64,000 nucleotides of DNA, from NCBI GenBank assembly GCA_037833965.1, contig AP031358.1:4410001-4474000 (forward strand), given 5' to 3'. Source of the stretch: Marchantia polymorpha subsp. ruderalis. Taxonomy: Eukaryota > Streptophyta > Marchantiopsida > Marchantiales > Marchantiaceae. Numbering within the stretch: the first letter of the stretch is position 1; every line of letters begins with the position of its first letter. Position numbers and translations under genes: made by a program. Shown piece after piece: positions 4,781 through 44,483 of this stretch. The notes under the pieces were generated by a model. The model had not been told where the DNA came from and did no database searches. It worked only from the letters and a program-made list of their open reading frames with translations.

Positions 4781-7700
4781 ATGGTTAGTAGCACTCCTCT
4801 CTCTCGTTTGTCTCCACTTTCCTGCTTCTCGGTGCCATCCCCGTGCATTGGATTGCCGTGATGAGAGATCCGAGTGATTCTGTACAATTTATGTTGGCAT
4901 CAATTCGTTTCCCGCCTTCTGACGACCGGCGCCGGCGTTCCTGTCCTACGAGGAAGGAGATCAGAAATCCACGTGATTTGAGCTAGAAAATACAACCGGA
5001 GACACACAGCAGGTTCTGCGAAGACATTTCTGTCCACCGAGTTTGGTTACATTACCATTCACGGATGTCGGCAGCCAGTGTTAGTGATTTTGTGTTACCT
5101 TGCGCGATCGTGGGATCCCCATCGTCCTACACTCCCGCAGTCTCGTAAATATAATTGATCTCCGACGCATTTAGATTGAAGAGCTCTGTAGATTCATCGG
5201 ATTGACTCATCGCAATTTCCCTCAGCTTTTTAGTGTATCGGTGCATCTGGCGACTCCACGCAACATGGCACATCTATTGAGAGCTGAGAGGTAACACCCC
5301 GCTAGCGTGGCCGATTTGGCAATCGAGACAGTTTCCCTTCAAACTTTGCCAATCTACGACACCGGTACAATGTCATGGTTGGTCATATATCCCTCAGTAC
5401 TTTTATGTTATCAACACTCAATGGTAGGTGCATTCTTGCTTGCACTTCAAGGCGATCATCATAACTGGTTGAATCCGCGATCTTGCCTGCTTCCAAATGT
5501 GGGTTCCTATTTAGTTGGTATGCATCGAGCGAAGGATCCAAGTTTTTTTGTAAGGATCAGAGCTCAGCTTGATCACGTTCCGCACAAGGTGACAGATGCA
5601 GTGGTAGCAGTCTCTGCCTGGGAGGAAACTTACTAGGATCTCGTGGTATGGGCCTACGGCGCTAGTCTGAGTAGCAGCCACATGCAACCTCAAACCATGA
5701 GGTCCAGGTCATGGGTCACGCGAAAGGGTTCAACAATACTAGTTCCAGTGTAAGCAACTCTTGTGGGCTAACGAAGTATAAGAGTCGAAATTATCACAGG
5801 AGTGGACTTCTGTACGTAGTCTGATTATTCACAATCTCGCCAACGCCATCTGGATCGTATGCAGATCGAGTGAGATTATGTTGTATACAGGTCCGCGAAT
5901 GGTCTCGTTCGTGCATGGTTCATGCTTACGCAAATCTGAGCCGATCCGAGTTTCAGAAATCCGAGTTTCAGAAGTTTCAAATCCACGCTGACTTTCGACC
6001 CCTTAAATAGATATCTTGGTCGATGGGAAAAGAATGGTGAGACATCCTGACCAACTGTCTCACATTCAACTGGTGTTACCTTTTTACTACCATGCAGGCG
6101 ACTGCAAATATTTCAATCGGATCGCAAGTATGGGTAGAAGATTCCAACCTGGCCTGGGTGGAGGCTGAGGTGTTGGATTTCGATGGCAAGCAAGTTAAGG
6201 CGCGAACCATCAATGGAACGACGGTAAGAATTTTGATCCTGTGTACCAGTTTGCACTTTCCAAGTAATACAAGAAGGCACTGGAGTGGAAAATAAAGGAA
6301 CTCAACACTCGTCAGTATTTTTTTCTGGTTCATGAGGTTAATATCATTGGATCTGCTCTTTATCGCGTCACATGTGATTCTAGCTTAAGTCTTTTGACCC
6401 TCCAATTCAAAGTTATTGGTGTATAGTCGAAGTCATGGTCTAGATCCATTCTCCTCCCTCTATGGTTTAGACTCTTCTTTCGGCTTTACGAGCTCTGTGC
6501 TCCAAATACTAAATGTTTTGGGCTTCGTGCAGGTCGTGGCCTCCGTTTCCAATGTACATGCCAAAGATTCCGATTCCCAGCCAGGAGGAGTGGATGACAT
6601 GACCAAACTGGCATACTTGCATGAACCAGGGGTTTTGTACAATCTTGCAAGTAGATATGAGCTTGACGAAATATATGTAAGTATTTCTTCTCAGGTTGTC
6701 TTCCAGGATATTAAATGAATTGTATAGGCTCTAGAACTTGGAAATTTGGATCTTGTAAAACTTGACATCATGTTGATGTACGTTACTGAAGAATGTAGTC
6801 GAATTTGGAGACTTCCTATATGACAGCGACTTTACAGTTTCCTTTATGGAGATTAAAGTTATGGAGTCGATGAGGTCGCATGTCTCAGAGAATGGATTAT
6901 TTCAGAACTTCTTTCTATAATACCGTCTAACCTTCATCTTGTGGTTATTACAGACATATACCGGGAATATATTGATAGCTGTAAATCCTTTTGCAAAGCT
7001 TCCTCATCTTTATGACAACCACATGATGGAGCAATATCGTGGAGCTCCACTGGGAGAACTGAGTCCGCACGTATTTGCAGTTGCCGACAGTTCTTATAGG
7101 TGATTGTACATTCTATTCTACAGAAGAAACTGCAATTTTGCATCAGAAGGCTTCATTACGAGCCTTACGTGCATGTTGTCAGCCGCCTCTACTTATCGGC
7201 TGCCTATTCTCGGACTCTTTTCTGATATGATAGGCTGTGTGGTCTACACTGATGACTAGCTTTGAGTCCCTTCCAAGTCGTATTTCTGAGAAGGGTTTGT
7301 TTGTTTTTAACTCTCACCCAGGGCAATGATCAACGAGAAAAGGAGTCAGTCTATTTTGGTTAGTGGAGAAAGTGGAGCTGGAAAGACTGAAACTACGAAG
7401 TTGATCATGCAATATTTAGCCTACATGGGTGGGAGAGCAAATACTGATGGAAGGACAGTGGAGCAACAAGTTTTGGAGGTAGGTGCTTGTTAGCGCCCGG
7501 AACTTTTATTCCCGCATCTTGTCAAGCGGAGCGGGTGAGTGTATGTGGAGCTCTGAAAAACTGAGTTTGTGATACAGGAGGATACGTAAGGTTATTCGTA
7601 AATTGTCTCTCGAAATTACATTTCCGTGCACCTTTTCGTTCTGCTCAAATTTGTAATCAACTGACACGGATGTTTGTCTGTCGGCAGTCGAATCCACTTC

Positions 7701-13700: not shown

Positions 13701-16700
13701 CGCTAAGGTGGAGAAATTGGTCGCTGAGTGTGACAGACTTAAGGTAAGGCTTTCCGTCCGCTTATGTCTATCAGTCTTTTGTCATCACCGCAGTTTATTT
13801 CCTCTTTGGTCCTCACTCGGATGGTCGCGAAAGGTGAGGATGGCTTATCTACCGGTCCTAATAACCTTTTGTGAACTTGAGAAGCGAGGGATCTTCGTAG
13901 AGCACCTTTATCGCTGTTATGTGCTCCAAGTACTCAGGGATTTGCGTTGACTTCGTTTAGGCCTTGGTCGAGACACTTGAGGCAAGAGCAGCAGAGGCAA
14001 CAGAGGCAGAGAAGAAGTATGCTGCTGCCAAGAAGGAAAGTGATGAAAGGTTACTTAGAGCAGAAGAAGCAGAGGCGAAGATTGAGCAAATGCAGGAAGC
14101 TGTTCATAGGTGGGATGCAATATTCTCCCTTCTGTTTTCCAAGTGTGTGGTTGGTCCCAATGTGTGTGATCTGAGTGAGAACGAATCTGAAAATCTGAAT
14201 GGGCGGAACGTTCCCCGGACCACGCAGAAGAGCGGTGTCGGAATGTTTCGGAATTTTCTAACGGGACTCACACTCAAAGTAGATAGGAAACAACTTCTAA
14301 CCCTAACAAGGTAATGCTTGTTGACAGGCTCGCAATCAGCTTACGAAGACCCATGTGGGGGCTCGCGAGCCGGCGTGATGGACTCGTGCCCAGTGCGCGA
14401 GATTCAGTGCTGTGTTCTGATAGTCTGGAGGGTTCACGTTCCCCCCCCTCACGTGATGTCTATACAACGAAACAATCTGGATTCAGCGTTCCCGTTGACA
14501 GTTCAAGTCTCACAAGCCAACTTCATTTATTGGAGTTAGCTTGTGAGACAGCCTGTGAGACTCCTGAGGACTGGCTGGTACCTCTGTCAAGCCATTTGCT
14601 GAGTTTACTGCCTGAAGGATCTCTACCCAACTTGCGCGCATCCCTGCATGATTCAGGGAGAGTGGCCTGCCGTCACTGTGGTGACAGGGTACAACCAATT
14701 CTGAGATCTGGGTCCCTTGAAGGGCCTACCCGACAAGAGATTGAAAATTCTCTTTCTCAGGCGTTGTCCAAATTACCGCGTTTGCATGGACGAGACTCGC
14801 AATCTCCACGTTCAAAACCTGTAACGAAGGTTCTCACTGCAACAGAAGCCGGTACCTTGAAGTTACGCTTGAAAGTTCGGGAGCCTCTGCGAGTTGTGGA
14901 AACTGTTCAGACTACCAAGCTCAGTAAAGACAGCCGAAGTGGTTATGATACAGTTAGCGAAGTTTCTTCTCTGGAGACAGCTGTGCCTGTTTCCCCTCCT
15001 GCCCCTTTCCCGTACCTGATGAAAGGTGGAATACGCAGTGATCAACTGTCTCAAGGACCTGGGATAAGTAGGCCAGAAACTCCTAAGTCCGATCGAGTCT
15101 CGTCACGTACACGTAACCCTTCTCCTCTAGTTACCCCTAGAGGAACGCGTTCCCCTTCTCTAACATCAAGAAAGCTTCCATCTTCTCCGAGGCCTAATTC
15201 CATCCTACCTGAAGCGCCTGGTGCTCGAAGGCCTTCTCCTTCCCGATCCTCCACTCGAAAGCCGTCTCCATCTCCATCACCAAGATTCAGTTTCTCTCTT
15301 AATCCACCGTCCAACCGAAAGTCCTCACCAGCTCCATCACGAGGAATTTCGTCTCATACCACTTCAGCCACCAGAAAGCCCTCTCAGGCTCCATCACCAA
15401 GATTCAGTCTTTCTCAAACGTCATCATCCTCTCCAGCTCCTTCACCTCAAGTCAATGCTTCTGATACTCCGTCTCCCCTTCCAAAGCCTTCTCCATCTGC
15501 ATCAACAAGGTTAAATCCCCCTCCATCACCATCGTTCCTTCGGAAGCCTAACCCATCGTTGTCCACAAGGAGAACTGATTCTCCTATGGGACCCACAAGG
15601 CGGCATCCTTCTCCTCCTCCTAACCTCAAAGGGAGGTACTTCATTTCTCCTGCCATTCGACGGACCTAACAATATCTCTCCAATCAGTTACTAACTTATT
15701 CTCACTTTATGAACCGACAACCCCCTTTTAAAGGCTACAAGGAGTGCTAATCTCTTTCTGGCCCGGGGGATATACTTCAACTACCTTCATTTATCTTATA
15801 CAAGCTGGGATACGACACGGCGCTAGCGAGATCCCAGGCTGCGAAGGAAGCGCCTGACGTCTTCTGTTAATTAACTCCGTTATTTAGCAGGCTTTAAAAG
15901 CCTTCTTTGGTGAGAACTGTTGTATGAGGTTATTTCAGCTGAGCTGCTATCACATTCTCTTTGATGGTGGGCTCCTCATACCATACTTCCTATTTCATTT
16001 TTCCGTTCTCTTTTAGATTTGCAAGCCTCTGCAAACATTACATCTTGGAGAATATAGTCAAGTAATACCGTCAAAAAGAACCTTGCGGCAATAGTTATTC
16101 TTAGGTGTCGAAGTGCGCCTTCATGTAAGGTTGCATCGGCTGTGATTGTTAGTGGTTCTAGGGCTTACTACTATCCATCAATGTTGGAGAGGACTTACGT
16201 AAAGCAAAGAGTTGACCGAAGAAACGAGGCAATATAACTTAAGCAGATCCTCAAGAATGTCTCCTTTGGATATTGTATGTATTTTGTTTCTTAAATAAAG
16301 ACATAGTTGCTTTATTTGGATAGGCGAGTCTCCTCTAGTTGAATGGCTGCCAGTTTTATATGCGTCTTAAATGATCACTAACTTGAATCTCTGCATTCAT
16401 GACCTTACCTCTCTTTGACTCTCTAATCTATGTTTTGTGCTGTCTTTCATCCTGTTTATGGTTGTGATTTATGTTAGATGGCAACCTGTGTATTTCACAC
16501 GCGAAGTGTATTATATCCCCTTGGTCTAATTCATTGATTTCTGACCACAACTTTTCTTGGGCGAGTAGATTGGAGGAAAAGCTTCAAAATATGGAGTCGG
16601 AGAATCAAGTTCTTCGCCAACAAACGCTTGTATTGTCGCCCACCAAGGGTCTTGGAAGTCGATTCAAAACCACTGTTTTCCAGGTAATGTTTTGCTCTGT

Positions 16701-19700
16701 TACTGCCCTTGCGGACGAGTGCGATTTTGCAAGGCATTGTTATTTTTAGGTCCCACCTTACCTTACCACCACACCTCTAATCTTTGATTTGTATTTCTTT
16801 CTTGTTTAGAATGAGAGAAAGGTCCTCTGATATGTCTGTCAGATCTGGGCTTATGTAAGAGCATATGGTGTGAAATCTCTTCTGACAAAGATGATATTTG
16901 CGTGACGGACCTTGTGAATACAGAGAAGCCCAGACAATGGATATCTTGCAAATGGTGAACACCGTCAGGCCACTGTAAGTTCCACTTGTACCTTCTCGAG
17001 TAACTCGACTTTCACGATGAGTTATTATTGCAGAAATTTTGAAGCGGTAGACTAGGTTAGTTTCATGATTGTTGTCTTTTGTTGAAGGAGAGCATTTAAA
17101 TTCAGGACTTAAGGCCTGAGTTGTAAGAGTTACATAGTTCTTTGCCTCCCCAAGTATTGAATCTAATGTTTTCACATTGGTCGAAAGCTGGTACTTAATA
17201 TGGCTGAAACATGAATTGTGCAGCTTGAGACACCTTCTACAGCTCAAATTGAGAGAGAGCATTCGGAGGCTGAACAAAGGCGTCAAAAGCTACTCATCGA
17301 CAGACAACAGGTTTTGATGGCTTCACGTTTGACTCTTTGGAATGTGACTCCGTTTCACGTTGATGGTTTCCAAGCAATGATAATTATCTTACAATTTTGG
17401 TAGGTTCCTCTGGAGGGAATCGAAGTTAGTGACAGTATTCACTAATCAGAGTGGTACGCATTGCAGGAGAATCAAGATGCCCTTCTGCAGTGTGTCATGC
17501 AAGATGTGGGATTCAGCCATGATAGGCCGGTTGCAGCATGTATTATTTACAAGTCTCTTCTTCAGTGGCGCTCATTCGAAGCTGAGAGGACGAATGTATT
17601 TGATCGCATCATTCAAACTATCGGAACTGCTATTGAGGTGAGGATAGAGCTGATGCATAATACACTCTTTGTCATACTTAATATGTGCTAGGGCTTACTA
17701 ATCTGGTCGTGCACGTCCGACTTGCACTAATGGCAAATATTAGGGATTCGCCGTAGGTAGATTCATGAAGACACTTAAGCTTTGAATTGTTGGATCTACA
17801 GAGTCAAGAGAACAATGATGTCTTAGCATACTGGCTGTCCAACACGTCAACGCTTCTCTTCCTTCTGCAACGTACTCTAAAAGCCAGTGGGGCAGCTGGA
17901 GGTACCCCGCAACGCCGAAGGCCCAGTTCTGTGACCCTCTTCGGACGCATGACACAAGTAAGAATCCTGACACCGTCAGTGTTTACAGAGCCGGAAATTT
18001 TCTCAGGGTATTGAAGTCTAGTTGTTGAATTTTGCGTTCATGTAGTAAAAAATCATCTCAATCAACTAGTCAACCATAACCGTAAACCATACCTAGGGAG
18101 AGGTGTGCAGCCCTCTGTGGTGGTGGCCTCTTTCCTGTTTTTGGGACTTGTTAGTAGTTGGAGAGTTGAATGAACGAAACTGTCTCATAATGCCTTTGTC
18201 ATATTCCAGGGATTTAGATCTTCTCCTTCCGGCGGAGTTTCTTTTGGAAATGGTGGAATTATGGGTGGACTAGAGGTTCTACGACAAGTGGAGGCCAAGT
18301 ATCCAGCTTTGCTTTTCAAGCAGCAGCTCACTGCTTACGTCGAAAAGATTTACGGAATGATTCGCGACAATCTCAAGAAGGAGATTTCACCGCTCCTAAG
18401 TCTCTGTATCCAGGTAAGCGGGATTGTTCACACAAGTTTTCTCAATTTATTTTCTTTTGCAGCAAATATTCAAAAGTGTGATAGACGGTTTGTGTTTTTC
18501 TTGTTGCTGCGCCGCTTTGTGATGGTCATGGCTGGTTTGTTAACTGCAGGCGCCAAGGACATCTAGAGCGACGTTGAGTAAAGTGGCATCTAGGACATCA
18601 CCGATCGCCAATATGTCTACACAACAAGTCTTGAGCAGTCACTGGCACAGCATCATCAGCAGTTTGAGTTCACTCCTGAGCACCTTGCGCGCCAATCATG
18701 TGAGTATCGTACATAACTTCCTGCATGTAAAATCACTTGCTCTGTTTATTTGCTTCGTAATTGTACTAATCGTACACTTCTCCTCTTTGTCTTTCCACAG
18801 GTGCCACCGTTTTTGGTCCGGAAGCTCTTTACGCAGATCTTTTCTTTTATCAATGTACAACTATTCAACAGGTGTGAACCGTAACTGACTTTTGGGTCAT
18901 TGTCAGTCAGACCGCCGTTCCAATCGCTCAATGATTATTACTTATAATTTGTAACACTCTCAAGATCTTCTTTGTTGTCTTTTTTATCTAATTCATCATT
19001 ATTCGCTAGCCGAATAAGCACATTTTTTATGGAGTCTACCTCCCCTGTAATGGTCATGTATGTAAACCTACGCTTATCTTTACAATCGCCAATTGACTGG
19101 AAAATTTTACATACAATCGGAATCTTGTCTCTATCGTTTCTAGTGAACTTTGTCACTATCCCTCCTACCCAGTGGCGGGGTCTAGGTTTTTCAGGGTAAG
19201 ACCATTCACCGGTAAACTTAATCGGAGATTGCAACCATGGCTTGTTATGATACCACAGCTTGCTTTTGAGGCGTGAGTGCTGCTCATTTAGCAACGGAGA
19301 GTATGTCAAGGCTGGACTGGCAGAGCTTGAACACTGGATATATGACGCAACAGAGGAGGTACTCATAAATATAGGAAAGACTGCAAAGCAAGAGAATTAT
19401 TTTGTGTATTATCCGTGCAAATTCATTGTGAATGGATCGCTGGAATTTGGGCGTAAGACTAACTCAGATTCATGTCTGTTCGTACAGTACGCAGGTTCAT
19501 CTTGGGATGAGCTGAAGTATATAAGACAAGCCGTCGGATTTTTGGTAAGTTTCGCTTTATTTTGATATCGTTATGCATGTGGCAATGCTCTCTGCTAATA
19601 TCTGTTGGTTATCAGGCCTGTTGCTGGTTATAGAGTATCAGCTATTAGACGCTGTATCTGTATCTGAATTCTGATAACCTCGCTTCTTTGTACGTGGAGT

Positions 19701-20479
19701 ATGCTTTTTGCAAATAAGAAATACTAAACTTCGTCCTTCTCCATCAGGTTATTCATCAAAAGCCGAAGAAATCTCTTGATGAGATTACTCATGATTTGTG
19801 CCCAGTACGTTACACCCTAACTTTAATCACTTGAATTCGGAAAATCGCGTTCGCTTATTGAGGTCATTGCTTTATAATCGCATCGGAGGTCCGTCAGCCC
19901 TATAGCAGAGTTCCTAAATTATGTATGTGTTTCAGGTCTTGAGCGTACAACAACTCTATCGTATCAGCACCATGTATTGGGATGACAAATATGGCACGCA
20001 TAGTGTTTCACCTGAGGTAAGTAAAGGCTACCCTACGGAATATTGTCCCCTCACCGTTCATGTTCACATAGCAGGAATTCGTCTTTGGATGTTTTGTGTG
20101 GTGTGGATAGCAGTTTTCCTAACAAAGAGCTGCAAACATGCAGGTAATTGCTAATATGCGAGTGTTGATGACCGAGGATTCCAACAGTGCCGTCAGCAAC
20201 TCCTTCTTGCTGGACGACGACTCAAGGTATGATACTTCAGTAGGGACCGGTTCATTTGATTGGAGTCCTAGACATGAGTGGGTGAATCTGTTCTGGAGGT
20301 ATGCGTCGCGTTTATGAGATCTGTGTTTAACACTGCAATTCTGGTGTCGCTGCAGCATTCCCTTCACTGTAGATGACATCTCGAAGTCAATGTCAGACAT
20401 TGATTTGTCTGATGTGGATGCTCCCCCACTTCTTCGGGACAACGCGGCCTTCAATTTTTTACAACCACAGCATGAGTAA
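4781..20479 (+). CDS. Class XI myosin heavy chain, complete, 39 proposed coding exons
   Basis: Actin-based motor of the plant class XI (myosin V-like) type, which moves organelles and vesicles. Exons: 4781-4783, 6098-6223, 6533-6676, 6954-7099, 7322-7478, 7688-7746, 7924-8080, 8228-8377, 8708-8844, 9001-9147, 9298-9399, 9518-9575, 9714-9815, 10356-10393, 10583-10709, 10834-11007, 11220-11351, 11700-11809, 11911-11971, 12154-12331, 12480-12685, 12891-13010, 13123-13221, 13522-13743, 13961-14109, 16569-16683, 16924-16974, 17224-17310, 17467-17637, 17802-17957, 18210-18413, 18550-18699, 18801-18871, 19259-19358, 19488-19544, 19748-19804, 19936-20016, 20144-20226, 20356-20479. They sum to 4611 nt (1536 aa plus stop) in frame; family members are about 1500 aa. 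Visible: N-terminal SH3-like region, P-loop GESGAGKT (about 155-162), switch I SSRFGKF (about 212), switch II DIYGFES (about 431), six IQ motifs (about 735-878), coiled coil (about 879-1060), and globular cargo/DIL tail (about 1120-1536). Start chosen: ATG 4781 abuts donor GTTAGT, and a strong acceptor at 6097 gives [12 protein letters not shown] 6092 is the alternative. Confidence 0.93.
4784..6097 (+). other. Proposed first intron of the myosin gene
   Basis: A 1314-nt stretch from donor GTTAGT right after the ATG to a pyrimidine-rich acceptor (CTACCATGCAG). I see no exon of the motor in it. The 109-codon open frame at 5307-5636 has no family resemblance. A long first intron placed directly after the start codon often carries enhancing signals in plants, but none can be shown here. 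Confidence 0.5.
14328..15669 (+). CDS. Candidate alternative terminal exon of myosin XI: Ser/Pro-rich basic tail
   Basis: Inside the 2459-nt intron between exons 25 and 26 lies an uninterrupted frame ending at TAA 15667-15669. It is preceded by an acceptor (TTGACAG, AG at 14326-14327) with CTAAC branch-like sequences 25-30 nt upstream. Exon 25 ends in phase 2 (AG); joining it to G14328 makes AGG and enters this frame exactly. Predicted product: motor, IQ region and most of the coiled coil to residue 1035, then about 446 new residues, 1481 aa in total, with no globular tail. The new tail has a mixed first half (including CRHCGDR) and a second half rich in Ser, Pro and Arg, with about two dozen SP/TP dipeptides and repeats such as [12 protein letters not shown]. 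These suit proline-directed kinases or binding to acidic partners. I do not recognise the tail. Alternatively it is a nested gene starting at ATG 14314, or an unused frame. Confidence 0.6.
16294..16299 (+). terminator. Candidate poly(A) signal for the short myosin isoform
   Basis: AATAAA lies 625 nt after the stop of the alternative terminal exon, just after a TTGTATGTATTTTGTTTC stretch of the kind found upstream of plant cleavage sites. It is still inside the intron of the long isoform, as expected for intronic polyadenylation. Confidence 0.4.
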
Positions 20480-37138: not shown

Positions 37139-39323
37139 ATGAACTCTTGTACTCCATCGTTTATTGTGGATTCATTGTCACTTGAAGTGGAAGCTGAAAG
37201 TGGAACAGCAACAATTTCATCATCACAGCCTAGACATGAAACAGAGATACCGCCGGGATGGAAAAGAGCAGATGAGGTGATAAATCCAAGATGGCATTAT
37301 TTTTATCGTTCAGTTGAAAAGGGAGTGGAAATCGCTATCGTGCAATGTGTGAACATTGTAGTGAGGTGCTTGATGGCAAGCCTGACAAGTTAGATTATCA
37401 TGTCTTGCATCGATGTACTTTGACTTCTGAAAGTAGAGTTGAGTATATGCGTATAGTAAAAAGATCTTCAAAGAGGCATCGAATGTCAATGCACTCATCA
37501 GGGTTGGAGTCACAAGCAGTTTTTTTGCTGCAGCACCGGCAACAACGTTTGTCAAAGTTCTTCAGTCCGCCAATGAATGCAGAAGTACAAGAGAATCACC
37601 ATATGAGATTTTTAGACTTCTTGGTATCCTCCAACAATGGCTTCAATGTGTGTTCCAACAAGGAACTTGGCCTGTTCATTCGTGGTCTCAATCCTAGTTA
37701 CGTTATTCCTTCGAGAAGAGTAGTATCTAATAGACTATTACAAAAAAGATATAGTGAGTGTTTACTTGAGCTTGAAGATCAACTCAAGGACGTCAGCGAT
37801 GTGACGCTAACGATGGATGTATGAGAAGATGTTTCTAACAACTCAATCTATGCAGTGATTGCCATTACTAGCACCAAATAATGGATATTGGACATAGTAC
37901 ACTTTACAGGCAGGCCGAAAGCAAATGCTTTGCTGCAGCAATTGTTATTGTTACTGTAACTAACAAAACTCTTCTTAGGTTGACCTCAATTGTTGCCTTT
38001 GTATCCGACAGTCCAACTACCATGATCAGATTGAGGAGCAATTTGGTCAATTTGCACCCAAACATGGTTCCTTTGTGCTGCTGCCTTCATCAACTTAATT
38101 TGATTACGAAAGATGTGTCAGCTCAGTGCACTATGAAGCAGGTCTTCAAGAAGAATTGCAAGCTGATCAACTTTTTTACAAGTTCTCATTATTGGACGAC
38201 ACAGCTCAAGACATGGGGTCAAGAAAACAATGTTCTGAAGTTTTTATCAAGTTTTTGTGAAACACGATGGTATTCAGCAGTGCTTGTTTGTGTTGAAGTT
38301 GCATCATATCACAAAGGTTTTCAACACTGGGTGGACAAGTCAAGACTAGCCAACGAGCCGCCGATCAACAAGTATATCTCCAACCTAGTGGATGACGATT
38401 ATCACTTTGCGATCAACAAGGAGATCTGTAAGCTCATCAAACCGATTGCCGAAAGTATTGCTCGTCTTGAGCAAAGTTCCACAACATTAGATCAAGTCTT
38501 TGTCGAGCTGATCAACTTGTACACAACTGTGAAGGACGTGGACGTTACCTCGAATTGCAGCAGCTTCAAAATTCACATCATCAAGACTATCAGAAAGAGA
38601 GCTTCTGAGTTTGACCATTCAATTTATTTTGTAGCTCTGTTTTTGAATCCTAAGTATCAATCTCTTGCCATATCCAGGAAGAAGAACTACAATGATATCA
38701 GAAAAGATATTGCACATCTTGCGAAAGGATGGAAGTTTACTAAGATGGATACTATCTCATTGCTAGGAGAGCTAAATGACTACATCAAGCGGAGTGGAGT
38801 CTTCTCCAACAATTCAAACAGGGATTTTGCGATAGATTTTTGGCAGTCAGTTGTAGGTGCAAAAACTTTGCGTGTGTTTGCAATGAAACTTTTTTCTATC
38901 ACTCCTCATAATGCTGCAGTGGAGAGATTATTTTCGCAGCTGACATTGTACAAGACAAAAATTCGTAACCGCATGACAGTGGAACGCATGAAAATGCTTT
39001 CCATTGTCAGATCCAGTCTTAAAGAGCATTCAAAACCCTCTTCAACGTCATCTCAATCATTGGCACTAGATCAAGAGAGTTACTTCAGCATAGCACTTGA
39101 AGACGATGAAGATTTTTTGATTAGGCCAGCGGATGAATTGTCTTTGGAAGATCTGGAGCTTACTTTGGACGATAATGATGACTTTCAGGGGGATTTTGAT
39201 ATGTATTTTGATTTTGCCAAATACCAACTAGAGTCATCTCCAAATGTCACCATGGCTGAAGTGGAGAAAGAGGTGGAAAGAACAGATGAAGAAGATTGGA
39301 GTGTAGATGATTTATTATCTTGA
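37139..39323 (+). pseudogene. hAT transposase with BED finger, disrupted by frameshifts and stops
   Basis: From an ATG at 37139 the frame enters a BED finger (PRWHYFYRSVEKG). It then shifts by one base in the GGG at about 37321: the next frame gives SGNRYRAMCEHC, with CxxC and the following His/Cys pair (YHVLHRC). The second block runs to TGA at 37822-37824, inside the motif TLTMDV.EDVSNNSIYA, where related transposases have Trp. A TAA follows at 37879 and another shift before about 37960. The last 480-codon frame (from 37881) is intact and carries IVAFVSDSPTTM, CCLHQLNLI and the C-terminal hAT dimerisation motif AVERLFSQLTLYKTKIRNRM, ending in a long acidic tail. An active ancestor would have used a cut-and-paste mechanism. 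The breaks look few and recent compared with the other TE remnants here. Confidence 0.85.
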
Positions 39324-42138: not shown

Positions 42139-44483
42139 CTAGAACCATACGTATTGTGATACGGGCATGCCTGGGGGCACGGGGCATGCCTTTTGATCTT
42201 GAAAGGGGGCACGGGCATGCCCGCAAAAATTTTGCCATGCCTCCAACCCTACCCGTAGCTGACGGTATGCCTCCTCTGCCTTCTCCATTCTCCTTTGCGA
42301 CTCCTGCAATTTCATGTCCGTCTTGCCTAACTGCTCCCGCAACCTTTGACATTCCGATTCAACCTTCAATTTACATTCGACCTCCGAAGACTTGACTGAT
42401 TCACAATCCGCCAATTTCTTGGCCCAATTCGCTAACTCCTCCTCATGCTTCTGGATTCCCTCCGCTAGACTTGTTGATATCTCCTCCGCACGTCGGCCTT
42501 CCATCTCGCACTTACCCGCAATCTCCAAAATCTTGCTACGAATATCTTCTTCCGCCGTCTTCGCCTCTACGATCTTGCCCGAAGTTCTTCGGCGATACGA
42601 ACTTCTTCGGCTATTCGGGCCTCCAACTTAGCAAGTTCTTCGATATGATTCTTCTCTCGTCTTTCCGCAATTACGATCAATCGCTCCGATTGTTTGACTG
42701 CCTCATCGTACGCTTCCTTGGATTTCTTCAACCTCGCGAGCAAATCCACTGTCATCTTCTGTGCAATTTAATTAGAGACACGAAGTCCGCCACATGTCTC
42801 TTCTAACTCTACACATCGTCCGGATTCCTTTGTCAAGTTCAATTGCGGTACTTCGCACTCAATCTTCTTCTCCCGAAGCTGGGCTTCTCGCTCCTTCAAT
42901 GCCGCCTTTGCTGCCGCGCACTCGGTTGACAAGCTTGCAGCTCGCTCCCGTTCCAATTCAGTCACGGAATTCCACTCCCTCTTCACCGCTACTGCTCTCT
43001 TGAGTTGCATTCTATTTCTCACCATCTCTACATAAAATCCTACCTCCTTGGACACAGCATACTTCTCTTTCTTCCTATCCAAGTATTTCAGTAGTGGAAC
43101 TACAATGTCCTGTAAGAAGTCGGGAAATGTGATCTCTACCCCCTTCAATTCCTCCTCCGAAGTCTTCTTCTCTTCTTCGGATCTCACATCTTCCGCAGGA
43201 GATGACGGCAATGTAATGTCCGCGGCATCTACCATCGTCCCTCCGACCTGCGCAACAACCTGCTCAAGTATTTCGTCACTCAGTGTAAGCTCCTCCACCA
43301 GTTCCTCGCTTGTCTTTGGTTGAGGTATTTTTTCACTCCCCGCAGACCGTGTTCGCTCCGAAGATAGAGAATTTGGACTTACCATCTCCGTTGCCTCCTT
43401 CAAAGGTTCCGCCGGTGCCCCTGCCCGAACTTCGATTAATACCCTCGAAGGTCCTTCAATCTCCACAGGCTGTGTCGACTCGCCAATTGTGACTTCGGGT
43501 GTACTCACAATCGGAGCAACTGTCTTTTCCACGCTGCTATCCAATACTTCAGTTGCCACAAATCCTCGATTCGCCCTCTTCTTTGGTCTCGCGCGAGTTC
43601 TCGACTGCCTGATTACTTCTACCTCCGTTTCAAATCTTTTGACTTCCAGCGCCAAATCTACCTCGTCATCACTCACCACTTTCCTTCTCTTTGCCAAATG
43701 CCGTTCTGGCCTCTCCCGTCTCGGCATAACATCCACTTGAACAGGTCTTCAAGCCATCATCTAAGGTGGGATTGAGGGTCGTCGGTTGTCGTCTTCGGTA
43801 CCTTCACTGGACTCAACTGTCAAGATCTCCCGCTCCCTCGGAAATCGTTTCTCCTCCTCCCTTGTAAGCAAACCCATGCCTCAATAGAAATTCACAAGGA
43901 ATGGAGTGAGATGATTGATCAATGGTACTGTCCACCGGGAGCTCGCATTCACCAAGACAATATCGTAAAAGATTCTTGCTCAATGTACTCTCTATCCCTT
44001 CAGGATTTGATTGAAGAACCCTACTTGTCAGGCCGTCACATACGTCGTGCGCGCAGGTCTCAAGATGTGCATTATTCTCAATGCAATCGCCCGTCTCTTC
44101 GGATCCAAGTAATCAGCTGTCTTCCATCCGTTCGTCCCCTGCCTCCCGAAACTGAAGAGTGACTCGTAAGAGAATTCTTCAGTGCGCGTAAGTCTCACGC
44201 TACTCTTTTCAAACAAGAGATTTCCGTCGCTACCTGCGCATGGTCCCATCACCTTCGCCCAATGTTCAATTGTCCACAGCATGGAATTACCTCGAAGATC
44301 CTCGCCCTCGGTCTCGTTTTTATCCATTATCTTCTTACAGATTCTCTACGAGATGCAATTCCAATTGCACAAAAGGAAATCGAGCCGCAATTCGCTCAGC
44401 TCGTGCTTAAAGGGTTGTAATTCCTCGTATGACACCTTCAAAGGAACCAATTTTTGCACCTTATCACTCTTCTTGTGCGCCAT
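42139..44483 (-). pseudogene. Decayed member of a repeated liverwort-type family: N-terminal domain plus long coiled coil
   Basis: Read from ATG 44483 down, almost the whole stretch lies in one minus frame interrupted by single stops: MAHKKSDKVQKLVPLK..LLCNWNCIS, stop 44346, then EHWAKVMGPCAGSDGNLLF..RPARTTYVTA, stop 44028, then QVGF.., NFY-stop-GMGLLTREE, then the 322-codon block from 43736 (MPRRERPERHLAKRRK, acidic linker, FPDFLQDIVVPLLKYL, coiled coil). A stop at 42768 follows, then more coiled coil to 42567, and after a frameshift a last heptad-rich piece to 42139. I recall this domain order from a large, mostly uncharacterised family in liverwort gene sets (memory, not checked). Stops fall where one C-to-T or G-to-A change would explain them (TGA for Trp after TYVTA). 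Function unknown; its copy number suggests a mobile element carries it. Confidence 0.65.

Follow-up and report, generated by a model that had tools for sequence, protein, structure and literature searches.

Marchantia polymorpha is described as having a single myosin XI gene, Mp8g04010, which has been used to define the conserved functions of the motor and for which two cDNA-checked transcripts,.1 and.2, are described in the available text of PMC7689712. These transcripts already give the gene two C-terminal forms by way of a donor that overlaps the exon 39 stop, and the longer form ends in a reported CCCH-KH-CCCH module. In vertebrate myosins Va and Vb, the optional exons B, D, and F lie between the coiled coil and the globular tail and change the choice of adaptor or cargo, according to the accessible portions of PMC6981383 and PMC3935558. 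The latter also covers maize myosin XI, a class XI example of alternative splicing that truncates the protein; the maize forms arise from retained introns and from splicing within exon 19, with no large new exon in the portion available. Eudicot 11D myosins, in the available sections of PMC3850447, share the gene structure of their long-tailed relatives as far as exon 25, after which another C terminus takes the place of the DIL tail. They are separate genes, not splice forms, with a tail of their own that is about 100 residues long in two exons, and they set a precedent for replacing the tail after the coil. That paper regards alternative splicing in plant myosins as unsupported and earlier cases as incompletely spliced or species specific. 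Within the open-access text searched, only PMC7689712 names Mp8g04010, and the titles and opening lines of abstracts among the matches listed contain no description of the exon considered here. A large optional coding exon before the globular tail of a class XI gene was likewise not found in those partly available open-access sources.

Here, we analyze a stretch of 64,000 nucleotides (the window) that carries a myosin XI gene on the + strand. A first-pass annotation had proposed that the longest intron of the gene hides a terminal exon, the use of which would swap the tail of the motor. We find a long open exon in that intron and consider it about evenly balanced, or slightly better than that, that the stretch serves as an alternative exon of the myosin.

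The myosin XI gene in the window

A gene model built by hand comprises 39 exons that give a 4611-nt coding sequence (CDS) for 1536 aa, and its longer form comprises 41 exons that give a 5511-nt CDS for 1836 aa. All six figures match those of Mp8g04010.2 (39 exons, 4611 nt, 1536 aa) and Mp8g04010.1 (41 exons, 5511 nt, 1836 aa) in the available text of PMC7689712, and we therefore identify the gene in the window as Mp8g04010, an identity based on exon counts and lengths and not on a letter-by-letter comparison of records. Pfam matches to Myosin_head, IQ, and DIL were above cut-off, Myosin_N scored 26.2 bits, slightly below its cut-off of 27, six IQ-like motifs were present, and the coil was recognized by a crude heptad count. 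We conclude that the whole gene encodes a class XI myosin with an N-terminal SH3-like domain, a motor, six IQ motifs, a coiled coil, and a DIL tail. Its features are given here with those of intron 25.

4781 to 4783, + strand: exon 1, start codon only (gene model; CDS length and exon count as in the available text of PMC7689712).
6098 to 13743, + strand: exons 2 to 24 with their introns, encoding the N-terminal domain, motor, six IQ motifs, and start of the coiled coil (gene model, Pfam).
13961 to 14109, + strand: exon 25, coiled coil, ending in phase 2 at donor 14110, score 4.97 (gene model).
14110 to 14310, + strand: candidate in-frame read-through of exon 25, 201 nt, to donor 14311 (donor score 8.43).
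14110 to 14327, + strand: putative intron before the alternative exon, 218 nt, with two CTAAC branch-point-like motifs (motif scan).
14328 to 15635, + strand: putative alternative exon in its cassette form, 1308 nt or 436 codons, phase 2 at both ends (gene model, simulations, donor score, repeats).
15235 to 15523, + strand: decayed basic Ser/Pro repeats, each 18 to 20 residues long, inside the putative alternative exon (family D1, 4 copies).
15636 to 15669, + strand: donor 15636; if it is unused, 11 more codons, the first of them split by the donor, and TAA would make up the terminal end (donor score).
15670 to 16330, + strand: candidate 3′ untranslated region (UTR) of a terminal form, with a TGTA/TTGT-rich stretch inside it; otherwise part of a 933-nt intron (AATAAA at 16294).
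16569 to 16683, + strand: exon 26, the constitutive continuation, with the remaining coil and then the tail; weak acceptor, score 1.85 (gene model).
16924 to 20479, + strand: exons 27 to 39, globular tail with DIL; exon 39 is composite (gene model, Pfam, available text of PMC7689712).
22638 to 24613, + strand: exons 40 and 41 of transcript.1, CCCH-KH-CCCH extension (gene model, Pfam; cDNA in the available text of PMC7689712).

The 3′ part of the gene has a precedent for variability in transcripts.1 and.2, by which exon 39 either terminates or splices on (PMC7689712, available text). The exon 39 donor (20476, CATGA/GTAAGT) overlaps the stop codon of transcript.2, such that splicing itself decides between the stop and the extension, and since that stop sits in exon 39, the 3′ end of transcript.2 has to fall within intron 39, of ~2.2 kb. 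A genome search with exons 40 and 41 gave 14 matches, 2 of which were the gene itself, and the best other match (G000:C2:3336196-3336900) showed 60% identity over residues 53 to 297 of 300. With such matches elsewhere in the genome, the CCCH-KH-CCCH module looks like a neighboring gene that splicing has attached to the myosin. The same CCCH-KH-CCCH build occurs in stand-alone plant proteins of the KHZ type.

A second locus, G000:C2:30981985-30982379 (L011 / L019), holds an intronless, rearranged piece of myosin mRNA with stops, in which exons 28 to 30 are joined and followed by exons 21 and 22; we take it to be a processed, scrambled pseudogene fragment. The fragment does not cover the border of exons 25 and 26. 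With spliced exons 23 to 28 as the query, the 3 candidates scored comprised nothing beyond the gene itself and a part of this retrocopy. Elsewhere in the window, the longest stop-free run lies at 37872 to 39323 on the + strand (483 codons), and another lies at 42768 to 43748 on the − strand (326 codons); neither has a Pfam match.

A long open frame in intron 25

Intron 25 extends from 14110 to 16568 (2459 nt), and no other intron of the gene model is as long, in agreement with the first-pass annotation. The coordinates given there were also right: exon 25 ends at 14109 before a donor GT at 14110 to 14111, an AG at 14326 to 14327 would close an intron of 218 nt, and the open exon that follows runs from 14328 to 15669 (1342 nt including the stop), with an AATAAA farther on at 16294. 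The frame is open from 14329 to a TAA at 15667 to 15669, encodes 446 residues, and measures 460 codons from stop to stop (14287 to 15669); as a terminal exon, the stretch would give a 1481-aa product. Both ends of the frame fall just beyond plausible splice sites, with 41 nt of the frame lying ahead of 14328 and 34 nt beyond 15635.

Simulation of the 2459-nt intron under six models, with 2000 sequences each, gave no sequence among 12,000 that reached 446 open codons, the longest run being 387. The first 240 codons contain no stop, against a mean of 10.6 under a dinucleotide model in which none of 5000 sequences was stop-free, and the other two frames over the same codons contain 8 and 17 stops. 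A chance origin of the open frame in intron 25 is very unlikely. The lengths of the Mp8g04010.1 and.2 cDNAs leave no space for 14328 to 15669, and thus the open exon is absent from both described cDNAs, the exon counts and lengths of which exclude it (PMC7689712, available text).

The later part of the frame is repetitive. Copies of family D1 are spaced by 60, 57, and 108 nt, all multiples of three, and similar units were recognized by eye over about 15103 to 15635. A comparison of 30-mers gave 117 similar pairs, all in register, versus a mean of 2.4 and a maximum of 24 in 300 codon permutations. The in-register share was dropped as independent evidence because pairs in the codon permutations were also mostly in register (679/732). 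Differences over 9 window pairs fell 27 times at third, 24 times at first, and 15 times at second codon positions, which leans toward purifying selection in a sample too small to count. Also within the open exon, an inverted repeat with 19-nt arms, 89% complementary, around a 5-nt loop lies at 14507 to 14549.

The first-pass annotation had described a tail of about 446 basic, Ser/Pro-rich residues. The net charge is +33 over 446 residues, and +26 of it lies in residues 241 to 435, in the C-terminal half with its strongly basic Ser/Pro repeats. The basic segment may resemble the basic tails of class I myosins. An enrichment of CDK-type sites in residues 241 to 435 was rejected: 1 full motif was present versus a mean of 2.4 in shuffled sequences, and 19 SP/TP pairs were present versus a mean of 14.6, with 154 of 2000 shuffled sequences as high.

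Codon usage in the open frame was not gene-like. Its codon score was the lowest among the six frames, at −0.051 per codon, and the true frame scored highest in each of 7 real exons, which themselves belonged to the training set. GC content at third positions (GC3) was 0.38, versus 0.52 in the CDS and a GC content of 0.42 in introns, and 360-nt pieces of the myosin CDS ranged from 0.375 to 0.592 and so place the open exon at their low edge. A GC3 at this level is compatible with an exon that is young or poorly expressed, and equally with a relic. The period-3 signal was rejected as evidence of coding: for the first half, 73 of 383 control windows, some of them possibly genic, were equally strong, and the second half, although at 87.7 it exceeded the control maximum of 63.9, is a shorter stretch of low complexity.

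Searches of the genome with the putative alternative exon, as DNA and as protein, returned one match each, itself, and no paralogue; the intron pieces 14110 to 14330 and 15636 to 16568 also matched only themselves, once each. The product of the open exon had no match in Pfam, PHROGs, or NCBIfam, and a PDB search gave only two weak matches to cellobiohydrolases (E values of 0.09 and 0.1), in the repeat region. A peptide pattern matched 13 stretches in viral_contigs and 152 in genome_contigs (viral and prokaryotic sequences), none of which was a relative. We conclude that the open exon is real as sequence and, very probably, coding by history.

Splice sites at the two ends of the open exon

Acceptors and donors were scored with matrices built from the gene's own splice sites. 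Acceptor 14328 scored 0.92, 33rd among the 147 AGs of intron 25, and 157 of 654 decoy intronic AGs scored higher. The constitutive acceptor of exon 26 itself scored 1.85 and ranked 22nd of 147, and thus the matrix has little power in this intron; only 2 of 39 real acceptors were weaker than either site. A weak exon 26 acceptor (16554 to 16569) would suit a regulated choice. The first-pass annotation had pointed to the exact phase match with exon 25, which is correct but carries little weight, because 8 of the 13 AGs listed between 14283 and 14487 fit; one of these eight, at 14283, runs into a stop at once. Phase match alone was therefore rejected as evidence for the exon. In-phase AGs deeper in the frame, at 14424, 14502, and 14688, outscored 14328. 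CTAAC motifs lie 28 and 22 nt upstream of 14328; of 1551 random intronic 32-mers, 42 contain such a motif, as do 4 of 40 real acceptor regions. A frame that becomes open 41 nt before 14328 is likewise what an exon border at that point would lead one to expect. We conclude that the 5′ end of the putative alternative exon most likely joins exon 25 at 14328.

A second donor follows that of exon 25. Donor 14311 (AAG/GTAATG) has the same phase and would lengthen exon 25 by 67 aa while keeping it in phase with exon 26. Of 5000 simulated sequences, 104 had at least 67 open codons, and 35 had an equally strong in-phase donor ahead of the stop. The read-through to 14311 may be due to chance or may be part of the same variable region, and splicing of 14311 to 14424, 14502, or 14688 may also occur.

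At the 3′ end, donor 15636 (GAG/GTACTT) scored 7.92, the best of the 74 GTs in the frame, of which the next scored 4.42, and in a leave-one-out comparison it outscored 22 of 40 real donors. It lies 34 nt before the stop and is in phase 2; 14328 to 15635 is thus a symmetric exon that could be skipped or included without a change in the frame of exon 26. Among 5000 codon permutations, 1 had an in-phase donor of such strength within the last 36 nt and 129 had one at any point of the frame, in a test made after the donor had been noticed by inspection. When peptides were drawn from the repeat region, 4973 of 5000 were more similar to that region than the 11 residues before the stop are; of 5000 random intron peptides, 661 were at least as similar to it as those residues. 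The 11 residues are therefore intermediate, a poor fit to the repeats and yet not typical intron.

Use of donor 15636 with exon 26 would leave an intron of 933 nt (15636 to 16568), longer than most of its neighbors. The donor may also be spliced to acceptors 15891, 15939, or 16017 inside the intron, and a stop, read by eye, would then follow within 1 to 17 codons. If the donor is unused, AATAAA 16294 provides a candidate poly(A) site, with 5 TGTA/TTGT-type motifs in the preceding 40 nt; the four AATAAA sequences in 11,859 nt of other introns had 0, 2, 1, and 0 such motifs upstream. AATAAA alone was rejected as evidence, and one in 900 nt is not rare, as other introns have about one per 3 kb. 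The candidate site nonetheless leaves room for a terminal form, which might be an additional product of this exon, and since exon 39 both ends and splices on, the cassette and terminal forms need not exclude each other.

These results divide the proposal of a hidden terminal exon. Intron 25 contains an open exon in the right phase, with a non-random frame and repeats, whereas its terminal status is partly disfavored by donor 15636. The proposed 3′ end is plausible for its stop, its AATAAA, and the precedent of exon 39, but the best donor precedes that stop. Loss of the entire globular tail would follow if the exon is terminal but not if the cassette returns to exon 26, in which case the tail is kept. 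Finally, the tail-swapped product had been said to keep the motor, six IQ motifs, and coiled coil; the motor and IQ motifs would be kept, but the coil would be cut short because the coil-like stretch, by the crude heptad count, crosses the border of exons 25 and 26.

Alternative explanations and comparison with known motors

The reading that we favor is that intron 25 holds an alternative coding exon joined at 14328 and used more likely as a cassette (15636 to exon 26) than as a terminal exon, and we hold it at roughly even probability. That the exon serves mainly or solely to replace the globular tail, with 14328 to 15669 as a terminal exon, poly(A) addition near 16,310 to 16,330, and a 1481-aa myosin without the tail, appears unlikely. 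A single frame open to a stop agrees with it, as does the density of TGTA/TTGT-type motifs before AATAAA 16294 (5 in 40 nt versus 0, 2, 1, and 0 elsewhere); moreover, an exon with its 3′ UTR would explain the oversized intron 25, the gene's other intron of ~2.2 kb (intron 39) has to contain the 3′ end of transcript.2, and eudicot 11D myosins offer a recorded case of a tail replaced after exon 25 (PMC3850447, available sections). However, the presence of so strong an in-phase donor 34 nt ahead of the stop would then be a coincidence of the order seen in 1 of 5000 permutations, the final 11 residues are a poor match to the repeats (27 of 5000 draws scored as low), and an AATAAA that recurs about once per 3 kb in other introns is not rare in 900 nt.

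Three further explanations were considered. Distinctly unlikely is a decaying relic, in which an exon or fragment of a gene lost its coding role only recently and survives purely as intron. Neutral decay would be expected to bring some stop or frameshift soon, and the 446 codons contain neither; the untypical codon usage, a GC3 at the level of introns, the weak acceptor, the absence by length from both described cDNAs, and the lack of any homologue found are all as a relic would have them. A separate small gene nested on the same strand, starting from ATG 14314 or 14353 with a function unrelated to myosin, is improbable. Both ATGs lie near the 5′ end of the open frame, and no similarity to a known family was found in Pfam or PDB, but only about 200 nt of intron would be available for a promoter, ATG 14314 lies within the donor-like AAG/GTAATG in a moderate context (G at −3, C at +4), and an in-phase acceptor with two branch-point motifs lies shortly after the point at which the frame opens. 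Finally, that the stretch is open by chance, partly of low complexity and never coding, is highly improbable: its low-complexity second half could be so explained, since 45 of 5000 model sequences of that composition were stop-free in the given frame and other frames there run for 116 codons on the + strand and for 100 and 72 codons on the − strand, but the same cannot be said of the first 240 codons (0 of 5000 stop-free) or of the whole frame (0 of 12,000 reaching 446 codons).

With the exon as a cassette, exon 25 would be spliced to 14328 and donor 15636 to exon 26. The favored product would be a protein of 1972 aa with motor, neck, coiled coil, and globular tail and with a linker of 436 residues between the coil and the globular tail, the C-terminal half of the linker being the strongly basic Ser/Pro repeat region. 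To judge from its composition, the linker is probably disordered. This arrangement suggests that the exon adds a long basic linker before the cargo-binding tail and does not replace that tail. The linker might serve as a second binding surface, for actin, microtubules, membrane, or another partner, or it might instead loosen the contact between head and tail and with it a folded, inhibited motor. Skipping of the exon would give the known 1536-aa motor, and if donor 15636 is unused and the RNA is cut near 16,310 to 16,330, the same exon would yield the tail-less motor of 1481 aa. Tentatively, and with more doubt than confidence, one gene could produce a set of class XI motors through optional tail exons, with 1536 and 1836 aa (both described, the longer one with its RNA-binding CCCH-KH-CCCH module) and 1972 and 1481 aa (both predicted).

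If one gene yields motors with different tails, then the 1536-aa form alone tests only part of the function of the motor, and splicing would replace the diversity that flowering plants gained by gene duplication. The first-pass annotation had noted no described plant myosin with a tail of this kind, a claim that the eudicot 11D myosins qualify, as they have their own short tail after exon 25 (PMC3850447, available sections). Compared by description, the Marchantia tail would be 446 residues long versus about 100 in 11D, and the likeness at exon 25 is one of exon number. Whereas Mp8g04010.1 and.2 differ after the globular tail, by the CCCH-KH-CCCH extension, the alternative exon proposed here lies before it. 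In that position, the exon would give plants a counterpart of the exons that select cargo in animal myosin V. The likeness is one of position: exon B of vertebrate myosin V consists of three residues, whereas the Marchantia exon would have 436 that are basic and repetitive.
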